Assembly (NCBI GenBank): GCA_021234155.1
Contig: JAJEKV010000002.1
Coordinates: forward strand, 42,089,203 to 42,153,202
Length of the DNA: 64,000 bases
Direction of reading: 5' to 3'
Origin: Isoetes taiwanensis
Lineage: Eukaryota > Streptophyta > Lycopodiopsida > Isoetales > Isoetaceae
Positions 1,365-20,840 of the stretch are shown here, in pieces (within the stretch, counting starts at the first letter, position 1; every line of letters begins with the position of its first letter). The position numbers and the translations under genes were made by a program. The notes under the pieces were generated by a model, which searched no databases, had not been told where the DNA came from, and saw only the letters and a program-made list of their open reading frames with translations.

Positions 1365-2177
1365 GACATGGCGTTGGCTGGCATAGAACATCGGCTAGGG
1401 TTGTCCACTCCATCCGCCCCTCCTGTGCACACTTTGCAGATGAGTCGAATCATGCTATGGCATCACTATAGCCTTCCGGAGACGCAGACTCAAGGTACCA
1501 CCCTTCGAGCCCACTCCAGGGTTCATGAAGCCCTGGTCCGATGAGGCAGGTCAAGGAAGTGTCCCCTTCCAGGATCGCAGCGGTTCCATGGGTGAGCTAG
1601 AGAATACGTGCCGCATCAGCGACCCCCGCATCCATACCCGACTTACTCACCCTAAATCTACTCAAAGTACAGGGTGCCCCATACGGGTCACACCTCTGCA
1701 CCTAGGGAGTGTCAGACCCATACCCGGCCCTCTACGTGGCCAGGCCATCGCCCCTAGCCCACTGTAGGAGTCCCAGGAGCCTTGTATGTTCGTGCAAGAC
1801 CCCACCCCCACTTCACCACTGCGTCCCTTCTCTAGTGCTAAGCAATTCCATAGCATCCACAACTCAGTGATCTCTTGTGCTCAGGCCGCAATAATTGGGA
1901 GCTAAAGGAGCTACTAGGAGCATACTAAAGCATAAGGCACAGAGGTCTCTACCCCCCTCTAATCCCTGCTTTACGTCCATCCATTATCCTAATTAATCCA
2001 ATTAAAGATTAATTCCTTAATTATAGGTAATTAACCTTTAATAATTAATTTAGCATAGCTAAATTAATCCCTTTTAGGTCAACCCCCTAGGTTAAAATAC
2101 CCCATGGTGGCGTACCTCTACTGGGTGACGTGTCAGTATATTTATACGTATACCATATAAATACTTAAAACGTCACA
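1365..2177 (-). repeat. Partial LTR of the same family, opposite orientation
   Basis: From about 1375 the text is LTR sequence again but inverted. The stretch 'ccactccatccgcccctcc' at 1408-1426 corresponds to 44839-44857 of the LTR at 44437-46052. The copy ends with ...CGTCACA at 2171-2177, the outer end of a minus-strand LTR. The first roughly 370 bases of the LTR are missing at the junction with the plus-strand copy. Its middle (1500-1960) has diverged from the copy at 45 kb. A simple reading is a plus-strand LTR inserted into this minus-strand LTR, with the missing part lying left of the window. Confidence 0.65.
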
Positions 2178-2270
2178 GAATGAAAGAGCCAGAGGATAAA
2201 ATGCATTACCATAGTAGAACAAAAAGAAGCTGGAAGAAACGCCTTTAAGGAAATATCCTCTCACAGAAAT

Positions 2271-2681
2271 CTACCTGCAAGCGTTGAGAAATGTGACTCC
2301 CGAACAAACAAATTGCGGAAACATGTGATTCAAATCCAGATGGCAGATCGGCTTCTCTCCTGAAGACCTAACATGAGACTGTTGTTGCCAGCTTCGCCCT
2401 TTGAAGCCATGGAGGAGAATCACCCCAGCTATGATTACGGTCACAAAAATGCCAGTAACCTAAGGAAATAAAAAAACGTTTGTAATTATTGAATAAAAAA
2501 ACGGAATACAAAAATCAAACGTGTGCCTGGCATACAAAAATCAAAATTCTAAAATGTAAACAAGATCTAAAATGTAGCATATCAAATTTTAAATGGAACT
2601 GAAGGGTTTAGTGTCTGCAACACAGCATTTTACCTACTCCATAAACCACAATGAAGATCCACATACTTGCATCGAAACATG
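2271..2681 (-). CDS. Last two exons of an unrecognised single-pass membrane protein (partial)
   Basis: On the minus strand a frame opens at 2459 after a strong splice acceptor (T-rich tract then CCTTAG) and runs 62 codons to a stop at 2271-2273. It starts with a hydrophobic run (VTGIFVTVIIAGVILLHGF) and then has a polar tail with basic residues (KGRSWQQQ). An exon at 2681-2638, between acceptor CCAG and donor GTAGGT, joins it in phase and adds the first half of the same hydrophobic segment (MWIFIVVYG), giving one transmembrane helix of normal length. A further exon-like stretch lies at about 2780-2900 (GIKFSIERLGMGKKVHV, followed by donor GTGAGT), but its upstream half is in another frame, so the gene may be broken. 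I do not recognise the family. The splice calls are by eye. Confidence 0.4.
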
Positions 2682-3225
2682 CTGGAAGAACACGCCGAGA
2701 AGAATAAAAAAAGAACAGATGCCCTAAATCGTAAATCGAGATTTGCATAGCTGGTTTGATCAGCTTCTGTTGCATAGGGTGGAAAAATCGTCAACAAAAC
2801 TCACATGAACTTTCTTTCCCATTCCAAGCCGCTCAATAGAAAACTTAATGCCGCTCCATTTGCCTCAAGCTCCAGACCCGCTACCTCACAACATGTCTGA
2901 ATGGAAAAATGGAAATGCTGCTATTATAATGTACCCAAACATCGCTAAAAATCTTAATACCCAGGAGATATAACGCTAAGAATCATTGTTAAGAAAATGG
3001 AAAAAAATGAAACGGGAGGGATGATTAAGGAAGAAAAAAATTTGAACTCAAAGATGCACTCGCACTCAAAGACGCATGCATGGTATATCAAAATAGGGGT
3101 TTTCAGAAGGGTTTTCAGCAGCTAAAGAAATCCAAGGCAGCAAGCCAAGGCCAGCCTATGTTAAAGCAAAGGAAGTAGACGAAATAAAGGAATGAAATAT
3201 ACCTAGTTTTGCTGAAATCGTTGAA

Positions 3226-3559
3226 GAAACTTGCTGAAAATCTGTCTTGCCAAACCGGCTCCCTGGCACAAATTTTGATGTTATCCTCTGCAAAAAAGGG
3301 TAGAACAGGATCACATCAGAGAATAGAGAGCAGCAAAAATCCATGTAAAAAAACAAAGGCAAGAATCATACTCGATTGCTACAGGTAGATTGCTGAAATC
3401 TTGTCCTGCCCTTTTGATGCTTCCAAACCGGCTCCCTGGCACAAACTCTTCTTATGTTATCCCTCTGCAAAAAGGGGTAGAATAGGCCAGATCAGAGAAT
3501 AGAGAGCACCAAAAATCAATGTAAAAAAGGGAGCAAGAATCATACTCGATTTGCTACAG
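3226..3559. repeat. Diverged tandem duplication of about 165 bp
   Basis: Two successive copies share 'ccaaaccggctccctggcac', 'agagaatagagagca' and 'aagaatcatactcgatt'. The first copy is about 3226-3383 and the second about 3384-3559. On the minus strand each copy has a T-rich tract followed by TTGCAG and then AGG(G)ATAACAT, so it may be a duplicated small exon with its acceptor. No continuing protein frame was found. Confidence 0.6.
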
Positions 3560-13745: not shown

Positions 13746-16700
13746 AGGCATAACTTGGAATATCCAAGGCATCAATTCTAATATCAAAAGAGGTAGATTG
13801 AAGGTTCGCCTCTCTTCCATGAATCTGGATTTCCTTTTCTTTCAAGAGCACAAGATTTATGATGACAACATTAATTCCATTATTAAAGATGTTCTTCCTG
13901 TTGACTTTCAGCATTGGTCTCTCAAAGCTAACAACACTTCTGCAGGAATCACTATAGCTTGGAGCAACAGGCTTAACTTTGCTGACATTCAGATGGTAAA
14001 TGACAACAGCTTTTATCAATGTTTATGCTTACCATCAGCCCCCGGAAAGAGTCAACCTTTGGGAAGTCATTAATAGGAGTCTAGAGAGGATTCCTTATGA
14101 TGAGTGTATTCTAGCAGGAGATTTTAACATGGTCACCCATAGCTATATGAGAAGTGCCAATTTTAGGCCCCTGACTGATAATGAATTTGCTAGCTGGAAT
14201 TCTCTTCTTCACTCTCATCATCTCTCTCTAACCAGAGTCACCCCCCACTCTTACAGTTGGAGTGACCATAGGGATCAGCCTGTCTGCTGCCTTCATGATA
14301 GATTTTACCTCAGTGAGGCCCTCTGGAACAATAGCACTAGGGTCACCAATTTAACCAACTATACTATTTCTGATCATTTTCCTCAGCTCATAAGCATCTG
14401 TGGTAACACTGCTCAAAGAAAAAGAAATTCTTTTTTTAAACTCAACACTAATCTCCTTGAGCTTGATGACTTCATGCCTAATCTGCAACAGGTTGTTTCT
14501 CAAGAGAGAAAACCTAATGGTAACACAGGCTGGATGGATTGGTAGGTGAGGGTTTCCAAAAGAATCAAGAATTGGCTCAAGGTTTGGGGAAAGGAAGTCC
14601 ATAGAAGTAACACTGCTCATTTACAGGATTTGAGATCCCAGTTGGACTTAGCCCATGATCAGCACAAAGATGAAATCAAAATTCAGATAGAAAGAGAAGA
14701 GATCAGAATTGCCAGAGGCTGGAAAATTAAAGCAAAGGTAAAGGAGCTCAAAGAAGATGAGAGAAGCAATTCGAAATATTTCTTCATCAAAGCTAAGGGA
14801 AGGATTAAGAGAAATCACATCTACAGTATCCTTTGGGAAGGCAATAGCATTGACAATGATATGCAGCTCAAGGATGCTGCCAGAACTCACTTCTCCAGGA
14901 TTATGGGGACTGAGGAAATATTAGAAGGGAAGATATTGAGAATTTTGTGTGTATTCAAGAAAAAGTTACTGATCTGATGAATCACAGACTTTCCAGGCCT
15001 TTTAATAATGAGGAAATGTTGAAGGTTCTTCAGGGAATGGAAAATGGTAAAACTCCAGGCCCTGATGGTCTCCTAGCTGAATTCTTCAAGAAATCATGGG
15101 ATATTCTGGGTATGGATATAGTATCCCTTGCTAATGAATTTTTGATGACTAAGAAGCTGGGCTGCAGGATCAACACAAGTCTGATCGCCCTCATCCCAAA
15201 GATTGAACTCCCAGCTACTTTTTCTGACTACAGGCCTATCTCCCTAACCAATGTGGTCTATAAGCTAATTGCAGGTACCATTGCTGCTAGGCTCAAGCCC
15301 ATCCTTGAGGAACTTATCAGCAACACTCAAAGTGCCTACTTGAGAGGCAGGTATATTCTAGATAATGTTGCTGCTGCTTCTTTAGGAATCTCTTGGGCCA
15401 AAGACTCCAATCAGTCAATTGGCCTCCTCAAATTGGATATTACAAAGGCCTTTGACACTGTAAGTTGGACTTTCCTTTGCTGGTGTTGCAAAAAGCTTGG
15501 TTTCTCTGATAATGTTATTTCTGTCTTCCAAGCCATTCTTAGCAATTCCAGATCTGCTGTTCTCATAAATGGGGAGTGTAGCCCTTTCTTCGACATTAAA
15601 AGGGGGGTTAAGCAAGGCTGCCCCCTTGCACCCTTCCTCTTCCTGATTGTAATGGAAGGTCTGAACAGCCATCTCAAGAGAGCCAAAGATTTACATCTAA
15701 TTAAAGGTCTTAGCCTACCCTCCCAGGAGGCAGGAGAAATCTTAAATGTTCACTTTGCAGATGACACTTTTCTCTTTCTTCATTTGGAAGCACACTCCAT
15801 TCAGCACACTCAAACTATTTTAGAAGATTTTGGCAAGTGCTCGGGATGCAAAATCAACCCTGCCAAGACCAAGCTTATCTCAAGGCATCAAGAGGAGGGT
15901 GAGCAAGCAGCTACAAACTTGGGTTGTATGTACCTCTCTCCCACTACTAAAACTAAAATTTTAGGCATCCCATATGCTATTAGAACTAATGCTTGTGAGC
16001 TTTGGGATGACTTGATTGACAAATTTTATAGAAAAGTAGACTCCCTTAATTCTAAATTCCTTTCTAAAAATGGGAGAGCCATTTTGGCAAATTCAGTCAT
16101 CTCCTCCTCTCAGGTTTATCAATCCTCCATTATGGTGGCCCCTAAGAAGGTTCTGACCAAAATGCAAGGTATTATTGGTAGGTTTATTGCAGGAGGGTCA
16201 AGCAGGAGGTGCTGGATCCCCATCTCTATGGAAGAATGTTGCAAGCACAAAAAGTTGGGAGGTTTGGGAGTTATTAATATTGAGAAGCAGGCTACTGCTT
16301 TGGCTGCTAAGTACTTCTACAGAGCCTATAATAACCAAATCAATCACCCTGTGAGCATTCTTATCTCCCATTATGTCAGTAAATGCCACCCCTTTGGCTG
16401 GAGGAATCTCAAAATGCAGCTGCCCCATAGCATTTACTTCGACTTTACCATTCCAACTACAGTGCCTTTGATTATCAAAAAGTGGATCAGGGCATGGCAA
16501 AAGGTAAAGGGTATGTATACATGGAAGGAAGGTCTTTCTCAAGATCAACCAATTTTCTGGAGCCCCTCTCTCATTCTGGATGACCCTAATACCTGTCTGG
16601 CTGCTAATTTTCCTACTCTAGCCAAGCAATGGACCAATAAGGGAATTATTTACATAAGGGACATTACTGATAATTTTGTTTATCAGGATTGCAAATTTAG

Positions 16701-17228
16701 GAGATGATTCCAGGCAGTTTTTTAACAGCATCACCCAAAGGTTGGCAGTTGGAGTTTGGCATGACACAGATGTTCTTTGGCACATCAATGAATTCTGTGG
16801 ATATAGAGTAAACTTGGCTTACAGGTACCTCAATAGAGGCCAAGAGAATTCTATCCACAGAAAATGGAATATTGATCCAGACAGAGCTTCCAGGAACCTG
16901 AGATTCATGTGGAAGAGTCCAATTCATCCAAAGATCAAGGCCTTTATGTGGCAGCTATGGCATAAAGCTTTAGCCACAAACAGAAAAAGATGGAGGCTAA
17001 AGATGTCTGATTCTAATATATGTGTTAGGTGTATGCAGGATCAGGAAGATGAAGAACACCTATTTAAAAATTGCTTATGGGCAGAATGGACTTTGGAGTT
17101 TGGCGGCGGGTTGAACATTCCTGGATTGGCCAATATGCAAATTGATGAAATTTTCTTCCCTGAGAACCCAGTGGAATGGAGGAGATACATTCTTCTTTGG
17201 AGAATGTGGAAAGGGAGGAATACCCTGA
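13729..17228 (+). pseudogene. LINE-2 ORF2 (endonuclease-reverse transcriptase), frameshifted and interrupted
   Basis: The protein is readable in pieces: 13729 to about 14020, then about 14000-14977 in the next frame with an in-frame TAG at 14543-14545, then 14947-16707, then 16676-17224. Endonuclease residues are intact (ITWNIQG, FFQEHK, LAGDFNM, ISDHFPQ). Reverse transcriptase motifs are intact too: GKTPGPDGL, RYILDN, KLDITKAFDTVSW (motif A Asp kept), GVKQGCPLAPFLF and FADD. The zf-RVT end is present as CVRCMQDQEDEEHLFKNC. The frame is cut in codon 'ctg a' at 17225-17228 by the transposon that begins at 17229 and resumes at 20742. Three frame changes plus one stop make this copy inactive. 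Confidence 0.9.
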
Positions 17229-17253
17229 AAGTCGTATTTAATTAAAGTGGGAC
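17229..17253 (+). repeat. Left terminal inverted repeat of the transposon
   Basis: It matches the reverse complement of 20717-20741 at all 25 positions. The words 'gggac' recur just inside (around 17267 and 17287), as subterminal repeats often do. Confidence 0.9.
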
Positions 17254-17403
17254 AAATCTCGAATTTTGGGACTCGGACTGAAAATGGGACAAATTTTTTT
17301 TCATTGAATCGTTGTTAGATCAGGGGGAGGGGAAGGGAAAGGGGAGAAGTTGAGAGAAGTAAGGAAGGGGTTAAGTTAGAAGAAGGGGGAGGGAGGAAGT
17401 TCA

Positions 17404-17632
17404 AAAGGGGGGTGAGAAGAGGGGGCAGAGGCAACTAGAGAGGGGAGGAGGACGGGCAAGAGGCAATTGGGAGGGGGGAGGGGGGATGGGAAAGAGGCAA
17501 CCGGAGAGGGAGGAGGATGGGAAAGGCAACTGGAGAAGGGAAGGAGGATGGGCAAAGAGGCAACCGGGGAGGAGGATGATGGGCAAAGGGCAAATGGGAA
17601 GGGAGAGAAAGGGCAAAAGGGGGCAAAGATGT
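17404..17632. repeat. G/A-rich degenerate minisatellite
   Basis: Units of roughly 30-40 bases built on 'gggcaa(a)gaggcaac.gg(a)gagg' recur about six times. The plus strand has many runs of three or more G, so G-quadruplex formation is possible. Open frames across it on the minus strand (Pro/Ser/Leu repeats) are compositional and not genes. Confidence 0.7.
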
Positions 17633-18086
17633 AGTAATTATAATCAATATAATTATAATAAATATAATTAACAAATATAATTAACATTATTATAATTAAT
17701 TAAAAAAAACAATATATATAATGAATCAGGAAATAATAGCCAAGGTGATTTCTCGACTAGTGGGGCGAGAAGATGCCCACAAAATCAGACTCCAAAAAAG
17801 CTGCCAAGGGAGGATTGCTTGTTCTGTTGTTCTGGCTTAACGAAAAATCAAATCAAAGCTCCCCGGATTCACTAAGAAGATTGCATCGAGACAACACCCG
17901 GAACTCCGCTTTTTGAAAGTAGCTGAATCACAGAGCAACCTGGGAATGATGGACAAAATTTGGATGAGCCGAATTCGACCCTACTAGGTGCTGCCGCAGT
18001 CCAAAATGAGGGCGAGGAGGCCATCGCCTCGCCTTCGGCTTTGCCTTAGCCTCACAAGACATATGAGCTCCTTCTTTCATGCGACC

Positions 18087-18132
18087 ATCTATGGCGTGGA
18101 TAGGGAGGGATCTATGGCGTGGATAGGGAGGG
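18087..18132 (+). repeat. Perfect 23-bp tandem duplication
   Basis: The unit 'atctatggcgtggataggg' plus 'aggg' occurs twice without spacer at 18087 and 18110, inside the transposon. Confidence 0.85.
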
Positions 18133-18354
18133 AGGACTAAAAATAAAACTAAAAGAAATCCTTCCCGACTGCCGAGTCGAGAAGGGAGGGATAGGAGATC
18201 TGCAGATATTTATAAAGTAGGAGACATGGAAAATATATAAAGAAAATCCGGGAAGATGCAGAGGTAGCCGATTATCTGCTCGGACCTGCTGGCTGGAGGA
18301 TCAGCTCAGATGAAGGCTGACCCATTCGATATCAAGATGAAGGCGATGCCATAG

Positions 18355-18948
18355 CTAGAGCTCAGAACTACATCTTACCAGCCACCGACCTCCGAGACTA
18401 CATTCTCCAGCCTCCGACCTCCGGACTACATTCTCCAGCACAAACAAGCACGACGGACCTCCCAGATTTCCACACTCGCCCAGTATCTCGCTCGAAGCTT
18501 TCATCCTCTCATCCGCCAAATCCAAGGTATCCTTCACCTTCTGTAGCACCGGCCTTCCCGCGCAGTGAATCGCCCAGAAAAGATCGTTGTATTCCGGCGC
18601 TGGCTGATCTTCGCAGGTATCCAGCGCTTTATTCACAAATTCTTCAATGTGTTCTCCGATTAATGCAGGCAGAATCCGACCTACAATCCCTGTGATACCT
18701 ATTTCTCGAAGACGGACTTCCACGGCCTCCTCTGTTCCGGCAAGTACGTTTTCCCCTGCCCAGTGGATCTCAAATAGGGTTTTTTCTTCAGGAGTCGGAT
18801 CTGCGCCTACTATCACAGCGGCAGCGCCATCTCCGAATATGGCTTCTTGCACCAGCAGATGTGGCATGTGCTCGTCCGGCGGATGAACCCATAAGGTAGT
18901 GTCTTCGCATGCTACAACCAAAACCCTAGCCCCTTTGTTGTTTTCCGC
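18355..18948 (-). pseudogene. Captured fragment of a type III polyketide synthase (chalcone synthase family)
   Basis: Chalcone synthase-type enzymes condense malonyl-CoA units onto a CoA starter in the cytosol. The fragment begins at 18948 with AENNKGARVLVV and continues through IFGDGAAAVIVGADP, YNDLFWAIHCAGRPVLQKV and ECGNLGGPSCLFVLENV. By family knowledge these cover about residues 198-365 of a roughly 390-residue enzyme. The catalytic His (WAIHCAG) and Asn (CGNL) are kept. The nucleophilic Cys half is absent, and the C-terminal GFGPG end is replaced by a tail encoded by a short tandem repeat (18385-18440) ending at 18355. A 21-bp direct repeat stands at each side (18364-18384, 18955-18975). 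There is no start codon of its own. The frame is still open, so capture may be recent or the piece may have been selected. Confidence 0.8.
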
Positions 18949-18975
18949 TGGGTAAGAACTACATCTTACCAGCCA
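18364..18975 (+). repeat. 21-bp direct repeats flanking the captured PKS fragment
   Basis: The same 21 bases ('agaactacatcttaccagcc' plus a) lie at 18364-18384 and 18955-18975, one at each end of the PKS homology. They may be target-site or template-switch scars of the capture. A chance or secondary duplication is possible. Confidence 0.75.
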
Positions 18976-19736
18976 TAGCCAGGAGCTTCAATGCTGTAGC
19001 CAAGATTTTGGGCGTTCTCCATAGCCATGGCGTAAGTGTACCAAATTTCAGCACATGTCCTAAATCTCTCTTGTTTTCAAAGGTATGTACCAAATCCCCT
19101 CCCCCCCTTTTTTAAATTTCAAATTTCGAATTTAAGCATGGGTGGGAGAAAAAAGCGGGATATAAATTGTACGTAAGAAAGAAAGGCGGGGTATAGCGTG
19201 GCCAATTATTAAAATCCTTATGATTAAAATCCTTATAGCGTGGACTATCATTTTATTAGTGTCACCCATATAAATATTTGAATTTTTGTCGCAAATTGAT
19301 AGCATGGTTGTGTGTTTATATATGTATGCTTGTATAATCATATTTTACCCCTTATGTTGACCTTAGAGTTGCTAGGCATATTATTCTTATATCTAAGATA
19401 AAAAGTGGACCGTGTGCTAGTATGCTAATGCGTGTATTATGAAATTGTGGTAGTATAAAGTACTAATGTGTGCTAATTAAGGTGTGCTAGTATAAAAATG
19501 CTAATGTGTGCTAATACTAATGTGTGCTTTGTATGGACCGTGCTATGGGTAAACATTGATATATTATAAAAGGGGCAGGGTCTATTTTTTCGTATATGTA
19601 TACATGATAAATGCATGATATGGTGTGCATTAGAAAATACATAGAAAATACCATTGCTGGTCCAGTTAGTCATGATTGGTGCTCTATGAGATTGGAGCTA
19701 GAAATTATATTTGTAGGCAACTGCATTTCTTGAACC

Positions 19737-20201
19737 TCGAAATCAGTTTTCCACCACGAAGCTGCCTTTCTCGACTTCAAGAAGTCGAAAAGGTCCTCGA
19801 GGATCAAGCGTTCTCGACCTCGAACTCGTTTTTCACTTTGAGCTTCCTTTCTCAAATTTCAAAATCGCTGCGTTTTACTCTCGATGCTTTTCTCGACCCA
19901 CGAGTCGAGAAAGGCCCTTAAAAAAATTTTTCTTGAAAAAAAACCTTTTTTTTTCCTAGTTAAAAAAAAAAAAAAAAAAAAAAAATTTTTACTATGAGTT
20001 ACGCCGACTCACGAAATCGAGAAAGGCCATTAGAGGGGCTTTGAGGGTCTTTCTCGACTTCGCGAAGTCGAGAAAGGCCCTCAAAAAAAATTTTTTTTTT
20101 GCCTACTTAGAAAAAGAAGGAATTTTTTTTTTTGTTTTTTGTTTTTTGGGCTCTAAGTTACATCGGGGGGCCTTTCTCGACTTCATGAGTCGAGAAAGGC
20201 C
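19737..20201. repeat. Array of palindromic TTTCTCGACTT units
   Basis: The best unit is 20043-20082, a 20-bp arm pair with one mismatch and no loop, centred on CTTCG/CGAAG. A second is 20169-20201 (GGCCTTTCTCGACT, short loop, AGTCGAGAAAGGCC). Degenerate relatives occur near 19743-19805 and 19885-19915 and as half-sites ('cgagaaaggcc') near 20020. Poly(A) and poly(T) runs separate them. The setting, just inside the right end of the transposon, suggests subterminal repeats. Confidence 0.75.
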
Positions 20202-20716
20202 TCATACCTACATTCTTCGAAATGGCCCTTAGAACCGGTTGTTTTCTTATTTGTATTGTCTCGTAGCATCACTTGCACTAACTTGATTTTGCCTTTCCCA
20301 AGACAAATCGCGAATGACGGGAGACATGATCGGAGCCATGTCGCTAGCGTGTTCGATTTCTATTCTCTTCAAGTTGCTCTTGTGGCTTGGAACGCCTCGC
20401 ACCTTGCTCTGCATGTTGTTCCCAGTAGGTGGTCTGTGTGCGAAGATGATGTAATATTTGTGTCAGCCCGACCATCATAGTATCTTCAACCATTGTAAAC
20501 TTTGGTTTCAATCTAGAACTTTGATTTCAATCTTTAATGAATTTCCTTTGTTTCAGTTGCATTGTTCTTGTTCTCGACTCGCTAATCAGGGAAAACTGGA
20601 GGAAAGCTTCGATGCAGAGTTCTAGACAAAAAATCGAATTAAGGATAGTTTTCGGGTCGGGGTGCTCTTTTTCATGTAAATTAACAGGGTTCCGAAAAAA
20701 AATGGGAATGGAATGA

Positions 20717-20741
20717 GTCCCACTTTAATTAAATACGACTT
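20717..20741 (-). repeat. Right terminal inverted repeat of the transposon
   Basis: It is the perfect inverted copy of 17229-17253. Directly after it come CTGA (20742-20745) and the resumed LINE-2 frame. Confidence 0.9.
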
Positions 20742-20840
20742 CTGATCTTTAAGGAAGAAATTATCTGGCCCAATGCCATTATTAAGCAAGCCCAATATGA
20801 TATAAATTGGGTTTTGGAAATCTTCGGGAATCAGAACTAA
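20742..20840 (+). pseudogene. LINE-2 ORF2, last 32 codons after the transposon
   Basis: Reading from 20742 in the frame that was cut at 17225 gives LIFKEEIIWPNAIIKQ, then AQYDINWVLEIFGNQN and a stop at 20838-20840. The text WKGRNTL (before the insertion) plus IFKEE (after) is a normal LINE C-terminus ('W..RN..iF'). This continuity confirms the insertion. Confidence 0.85.

Follow-up and report, generated by a model that had tools for sequence, protein, structure and literature searches.

A gene-carrying, non-autonomous DNA transposon of a probably Sola-like family with a DUF7869 transposase in the lycophyte Isoetes taiwanensis

In the genome of the lycophyte Isoetes taiwanensis, a 3513-bp element lies inside the reading frame of a long interspersed nuclear element (LINE) and raises the question of which DNA transposons combine sharply defined inverted ends with a 4-bp target site duplication (TSD). 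The element occupies positions 17229..20741 of a stretch of 64,000 nucleotides (contig JAJEKV010000002.1 of assembly GCA_021234155.1, positions 42,089,203 to 42,153,202, here called the window). The original prediction, made from the letters alone, placed it outside the common plant superfamilies and proposed either a new non-autonomous family or a plant member of a group such as Sola2 or Ginger. Our analysis indicates that it is very probably a non-autonomous, gene-carrying member of a Sola-like family of DNA transposons, the transposase of which contains the Pfam domain DUF7869.

The terminal inverted repeats (TIRs) of 25 bp are located at 17229..17253 (plus strand) and 20717..20741 (minus strand); the arms are 100% complementary, with 0 mismatches, and even when 3 mismatches are allowed, nothing else in the window matches the 25-bp end (0 in 100 shuffles). 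Direct reading of the flanks gives the two copies of the TSD, CTGA, at 17225..17228 and 20742..20745. The target is the C-terminal part of a LINE frame (16676..17228, plus strand), in which the open reading frame (ORF) on the left flank matches the zf-RVT domain of reverse transcriptases in Pfam (PF13966, E 1.3e-13), and the continuation of this frame to its stop was read directly at 20746..20840 (plus strand). Once the element and one CTGA are removed, the LINE frame continues ...RNTLIFKEEIIWPN... until the stop at 20840. A search of the genome with the joined flanks (203 nt) yielded 336 candidates, 40 of which were scored; the junction is spanned by the alignments in all 40, so that the frame is uninterrupted there, and the best two matches align over 203/203 positions at 99% identity. 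Since these matches cross the junction, the empty site is present many times and the insertion duplicated exactly four bases. The perfect inverted ends, the exact duplication of CTGA and the restoration of the LINE frame upon excision, all claimed by the original prediction, are thus borne out, and so is the insertion boundary, which is confirmed by the uninterrupted site in 40/40 scored LINE relatives.

The ends define a large family. Throughout the genome (1,658,258,908 bases in 1110 contigs, i.e. 1.658 Gb) we found 1661 forward and 1709 reverse matches to the 25-bp end at up to 2 mismatches, 3370 in total, versus 0 forward and 0 reverse for the reversed end pattern used as a control; hence the ends are not due to chance, the further copies anticipated from the window copy exist, and their number suggests about 1,700 copies with well-matched ends. 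The matches listed include 26 end pairs less than 16 kb apart, 12 of them spanning 3.5-5.8 kb and 14 spanning 11.0-14.8 kb, as well as 4 further pairs that are 23-27 kb apart. TSDs were compared in 26 copies with both ends read, including the window copy and excluding L042 (one end missing) and L046 (both ends missing in the stretch read). Identical 4-bp flanks are present in 23 of the 26, one of them (L008) being an ambiguous poly-A run. Only the length of the duplication is conserved across the family, while its sequence varies freely apart from a slight bias toward A/T; of the CTGA-like 4-bp duplications expected in other copies, the length therefore stands (23/26), and a CTGA-like target was rejected. 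Relatedness extends inwards from the ends: a left subterminal block of 62 bp (17229..17290, plus strand) recurs at 95-100% identity in 12 of the 14 copies examined for it, among them the 12-kb copies that bear the transposase, and has no match of at least 60 bp in L008 and L009, and a right subterminal block of up to 236 bp (20506..20741, plus strand) is matched in 14/14 copies with 80-94% identity over 169-240 bp (in L005 within a longer match). Much of the interior of the window element differs from these 14 copies.

Longer copies with the same ends, which had been suggested as the place to look for a transposase, indeed carry remnants of one. These are C22 (12,062 bp, TSD TAAA), C16 (12,063 bp, 5-bp TSD) and L020, a 5,109-bp derivative (TSD TTCT), all with both 25-bp ends and with about 3.2 kb in common beside one end. 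Pfam detects DUF7869 (PF25273) in the shared stretch of C16 and C22, and L020 aligns with the same DUF7869 transposase protein. A perfect 25-bp end is located about 170-210 bp past the C-terminus of the transposase in L021, L022, L024 and L027, and 9/9 further transposase loci have one end at up to 3 mismatches. The matches of L021 and L027 to PF25273 are strong (E 1e-44 and 2e-40; 138.6 and 152.7 bits, cut-off 26), and DUF7869 is the only Pfam domain reported in these transposases at E up to 10. In the whole genome, a 400-aa transposase query gave 12,936 candidates, of which 104 were scored, and for DUF7869 as a whole the best 150 of 9,907 candidate loci were scored, all of them above the cut-off; 0 of 14 control genomes contained DUF7869 loci. 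The transposase has no tblastn match in the 64-kb window, and the window copy is non-autonomous. The motifs D-G/K-x-DQ, LDN and GHTHD-x-ID are invariant among six Isoetes proteins, drawn from this lineage and others (a seventh row was left out of the alignment because its reading contained stops), and the conserved aspartates, likewise invariant in seven Azolla-associated transposases described below, may represent a DDD catalytic triad.

The identity of the transposase bears directly on two of the candidate assignments. A Ginger-type transposon with an integrase-like transposase would account for the length of the TSD, since duplications are described as 4 bp in Ginger1 and 4 or 5 bp in Ginger2 (PMC10045372). 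The integrase-type transposase is not found here; because the protein matches DUF7869 and no integrase core (rve-type) is reported at E up to 10, we rejected Ginger, whose probability is next to nil. Captured host gene fragments are the hallmark of Pack-MULEs, i.e. of certain Mutator-like elements (MULEs), and the window element's family resembles them in that its non-autonomous copies have common ends around captured host gene fragments. An analogy between Pack-MULEs and giant transposons has also been drawn (PMC12477816). A Mutator-like element with an atypically short duplication is nevertheless highly improbable, and membership was rejected: Pfam reports only DUF7869 in the transposase and no MULE domain, and 23 of the 26 copies have a 4-bp TSD, whereas the range given for MULEs is 7-12 bp (PMC10741241). 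The window element's family, with another transposase family and another duplication length, is accordingly no member, and its position outside the common plant superfamilies, as originally predicted, is upheld by both features.

Other DUF7869 loci provide the context for a positive assignment. At four further loci in Isoetes (L047-L050), a ParB-like gene is divergent to the transposase; the designation ParB-like is our own reading, with Pfam reporting weak matches to DUF6551 (E 0.009 and 0.03) in two of the three scanned. A scan of prokaryote genomes for DUF7869 returned seven loci (L055-L061, on CAKZGI01 contigs, one bin labelled uncultured Trichormus). Azolla ferns harbour Trichormus azollae as their cyanobiont, and L059 carries what reads as a retrotransposon-type integrase beside the DUF7869 gene; because of this symbiosis and this integrase, the contigs are probably Azolla host DNA binned with the symbiont, i.e. 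fern contamination. Four of the seven loci (L056-L059) exhibit the same divergent pair of transposase and ParB-like gene. Downstream of the ParB-like part, L056-L059 and Isoetes L048 (5 of 8 loci scanned) possess a DIPYGF motif resembling those of N6/N4 DNA methyltransferases, which was not seen in the other three (L047, L049 and L050). The search for outer TIRs of L047-L050 and L056-L059 returned mainly internal palindromes and no trusted end pair. We found no DUF7869 relatives among viral contigs, and no match in phage genomes by tblastn with one sister-lineage protein. A profile search detected no ParB-like gene inside copies of the window element's family, the only strong match, in L023, being essentially outside the right end; at L023:5681-5974, a copy of the family has apparently inserted in or beside the ParB-like gene of another DUF7869 element.

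Because the two-gene layout of the sister lineages and the 4-bp TSD match the descriptions of Sola, and the aspartates are compatible with them, the window element's family can be regarded as Sola-like and nearest to Sola1, a placement suggested by context and published descriptions, not by the sequence of the transposase. For Sola elements, a DDD transposase, a TSD of 4 bp and TIRs between 11 and 1124 bp long have been described, as has their presence in the moss Physcomitrella (PMC10741241); the family studied here has the 4-bp TSD in 23/26 copies and 25-bp TIRs, which in the window copy match perfectly. In the brown alga Ectocarpus, the 21.5-kb element Sola1-1_Ec32 carries an opposite-strand gene for a ParB-like protein and an N4/N6 DNA methyltransferase (PMC12477816). 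The likeness is that the element is large, that a second gene is encoded on the other strand than the transposase and that, in the DUF7869 sister lineages (Isoetes and Azolla-associated), this second gene is ParB-like, with the methyltransferase-type motif in L048 and L056-L059, whereas in the window element's family the partner position is taken by a phosphatase-like gene of the FCP1/NIF type. The ParB-like and methyltransferase partner, which is associated with Sola1 but does not define it, was not found in this family by profile, and its ParB-like part is present in the sister lineages. Sola2 of dictyostelids (PMC3627910) prefers AWWT targets and has TIRs of 12-21 bp, a transposase of 888 aa and Fanzor1 as cargo. 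It resembles the elements studied here in the 4-bp duplication, in the large transposase and in that related families retain one part of the element and have exchanged the remainder; it differs in the Fanzor1 cargo, in the length of the TIRs (25 bp here) and in the target, as AWWT fits only 2 of the 23 TSDs (both AATT). Sola2 was therefore disfavoured as the best match, the sister two-gene layout being that of Sola1. From the original proposal, the non-autonomous family with 4-bp TSDs (23/26 copies) is thus retained; of the groups named as examples, Ginger is dropped for its lack of fit to a DUF7869 protein without integrase core, and Sola2 is disfavoured for its targets and layout.

We also considered that DUF7869 elements are a separate superfamily, which has the 4-bp TSD and the ParB-like/methyltransferase-like partner in common with Sola1 by convergence or by exchange of partners. 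This is unlikely, given that the lengths of TSD and TIR fit the description of Sola, that the aspartates are compatible with it, and that Sola is present in Physcomitrella (PMC10741241), although several facts speak for it: DUF7869 has no assigned function in Pfam; the link to Sola1 consists of the partner gene, the TSD length and the aspartates and not of a sequence comparison; AWWT is rare among the TSDs (2/23); and the open-licence literature searched, which did not cover Repbase, neither mentions DUF7869 nor, as far as we found, describes the window element's family. Further observations count against a Sola-like family mobilised by the DUF7869 protein. One of the 26 copies, the transposase-bearing C16, has a 5-bp duplication, and two (L003 and C10) have none. 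The transposase frames of C16, C22 and L020 are all broken, and the more open ones (591 aa in L021, 571 aa in L022 and 694 aa in L027) come from loci where one end only was seen. A transposase profile from the Isoetes alignment found no relative in PDB, with a single match to an unrelated haemoprotein receptor (E 0.062); one transposase ORF used as a query likewise had no match there. AlphaFold models of the Azolla-associated transposase (7-sequence alignment) and of its partner protein (4-sequence alignment) have a mean predicted local distance difference test (pLDDT) score of 42.1, too low to call an RNase-H fold, and of 38.2, respectively. Finally, no methyltransferase domain is above the Pfam cut-off in the partner, which has the motif alone.

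In the family with the window element's ends, the transposase has a head-to-head neighbour gene, the product of which scores 41.8 bits against the NLI-interacting-factor/FCP1 phosphatase domain of Pfam (PF03031, cut-off 21.8); the phosphatase-like ORF of C16 alone reaches 17.3 bits, below that cut-off. The transposase and phosphatase-like genes of C16 and C22 point outwards, each toward its own end of the element. A scored phosphatase-like locus lies within 16 kb of 24 of the 104 transposase loci and within 30 kb of 29 of them, about 0.6 near pairs being expected by chance placement, and the orientation is divergent in 29/29 near pairs. This constancy of order argues against the view that the gene is a frequently captured host passenger with no functional part in the autonomous element, which we consider somewhat unlikely. 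The passenger view is also at odds with the sequences themselves: among the best 150 of 6,862 candidate loci in the genome, which were scored, 105 show no stop across the aligned region, including some with as little as 74% identity to the query, and the ratio of nonsynonymous to synonymous substitution rates (dN/dS) is below 1 in all 65 pairs used. In its favour, the family does capture host genes, the window copy has no tblastn match to the phosphatase-like protein (best E 1.9), and 45 of the 150 loci contain at least one stop, although the list, ranked by score, is skewed toward intact loci; moreover, dN/dS is only moderately low (median 0.50, range 0.27-0.79), a crude Nei-Gojobori estimate from 12 chosen open frames that include sequence before the likely start, with one of the 66 pairs omitted for too low dS. 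We favour an accessory role of the phosphatase-like protein in the element. Its first HAD motif is DVNGVL (DxNG), which has no second Asp where the canonical motif has one, and its phosphatase activity is therefore uncertain; a search of PDB with the protein gave no match. We found no description of the combination of transposase and phosphatase-like gene in the open-licence literature. It is conceivable, at somewhat less than an even chance, that in lycophytes a lineage of Sola-like transposons, or of a new DUF7869 superfamily, swapped the ParB-like/methyltransferase-like accessory of its relatives for a domesticated FCP1/NIF-type phosphatase-like protein, which was amplified with the elements and perhaps acts on host transcription or silencing, while non-autonomous members shuffle host exons.

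The window copy itself carries a captured host gene fragment, which the original prediction does not mention, by a Pack-MULE-like capture with different machinery. The piece is chalcone-synthase-like, 539 bp long (18411..18949, minus strand) and identical at 531/539 bases (98.5%) to the host gene in L045 (L045:1748-2286). That chalcone-synthase-like gene has an open frame of 336 aa, and the matching stretch lies inside its apparent second exon. As the match stops on both sides inside that frame, the direction of transfer was from gene to element. The ORF at 18355-18921 matches Chal_sti_synt_C (E 2.4e-25) and Chal_sti_synt_N (E 1.2e-8) in Pfam and chalcone synthases in PDB (down to E 1e-35). 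The fragment lies between two direct repeats of 21 bp (18364..18384 and 18955..18975, both plus strand), members of one repeat family, the left one of which is absent on that side in the sibling L043; at the capture junctions, short homology is seen, the final bases of the captured piece are repeated in tandem, and this 21-bp element sequence is duplicated so that it stands on both sides. Three further copies have the same piece. In L040 it has 0 mismatches to the window copy over the same 539 bp, while the backbones differ by 3.2-3.8%, a pattern for which a recent conversion, templated by another copy or by the host gene, is one possible cause. In L041 it is mismatched at 10.8% of positions (backbone 4.6-4.8%) and in L042 at 7.2% (backbone 4.2-6.3%), and these pieces appear to be older versions. 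The siblings L043 and L044 have element positions 1-1134 and 1714-3513 in common with the window copy at 86-98% identity, and the slot between them holds about 660-665 bp of other sequence. Among 86 longer ORFs from 15 further copies, one ORF each matched GT47 (L003), an aspartyl protease/xylanase inhibitor and chalcone synthase, and one ORF matched the model of acyl-carrier-protein synthase III, which is a fold relative of chalcone synthase; no other families were found among them at E 0.001. The Exostosin/GT47 fragment (L003:910-1365), in a copy without target duplication, is probably another captured gene piece.

Another feature of the interior, likewise absent from the original prediction, is a cluster of palindromes. 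Those of the TCTCGAC...GTCGAGA type, detected by arm search and motif patterns, are located at 19768..19791, 19886..19915, 20040..20085 (46 bp, with 23-nt arms and one mismatch, centred on the motif) and 20167..20203. The motif patterns give 3 strict and 4 loose palindromes in the element and 0 in the remaining 60,487 bp of the window, with means of 0 (strict) and 0.004 (loose) in 500 composition shuffles; the arm search adds a fifth, less regular one (18160..18185), related to the same type with one half reading CCCGAC and unmatched by the patterns. At least 2 loose palindromes are present in 17 of 18 other copies with both ends, the exception being L020, which has none, and the 6-kb piece L027 has none of this type. 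Near-perfect palindromes of about 32 bp are also found in L047-L049, mostly between their two genes; those of L047-L049 and L056-L059 differ in sequence from the window element's and are mostly intergenic to the gene pair. The common palindromes may be binding sites for a protein encoded by the element or the host. A separate tract at 17329-17625 of the window, also within the element, is purine-rich and consists of imperfect repeats of the GGAGGATGGGCAAAGAGGCAAC type.

Taken as a mechanism for the Sola-like, DUF7869-encoding family, these features suggest that the DUF7869 protein would bind the TIRs and the subterminal blocks and cut via its conserved aspartates by DDD chemistry; strand transfer with a 4-bp stagger would then yield the TSD, and the window copy would have been moved in trans by this protein. 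Internal fragments may be gained and exchanged through faulty gap repair with template switching, which we infer because of the short homology at the junctions, the doubled 21-bp flank, the other filler in the sibling slot, and the identical captured piece on differing backbones.

For the genome of I. taiwanensis, this means that a family with 4-bp TSDs, outside the common plant superfamilies, accounts for 3370 element ends and carries gene fragments, and a Pfam domain of unknown function, DUF7869, becomes linked to transposition. Exon capture would extend past the superfamilies from which we know it. To our knowledge, no phosphatase-like passenger gene has been found on DNA transposons; should the phosphatase-like gene prove to be a genuine accessory gene, it would represent a new kind of DNA-transposon passenger, and the presence of ParB-like and phosphatase-like lineages in one genome would allow a direct comparison of accessory functions.

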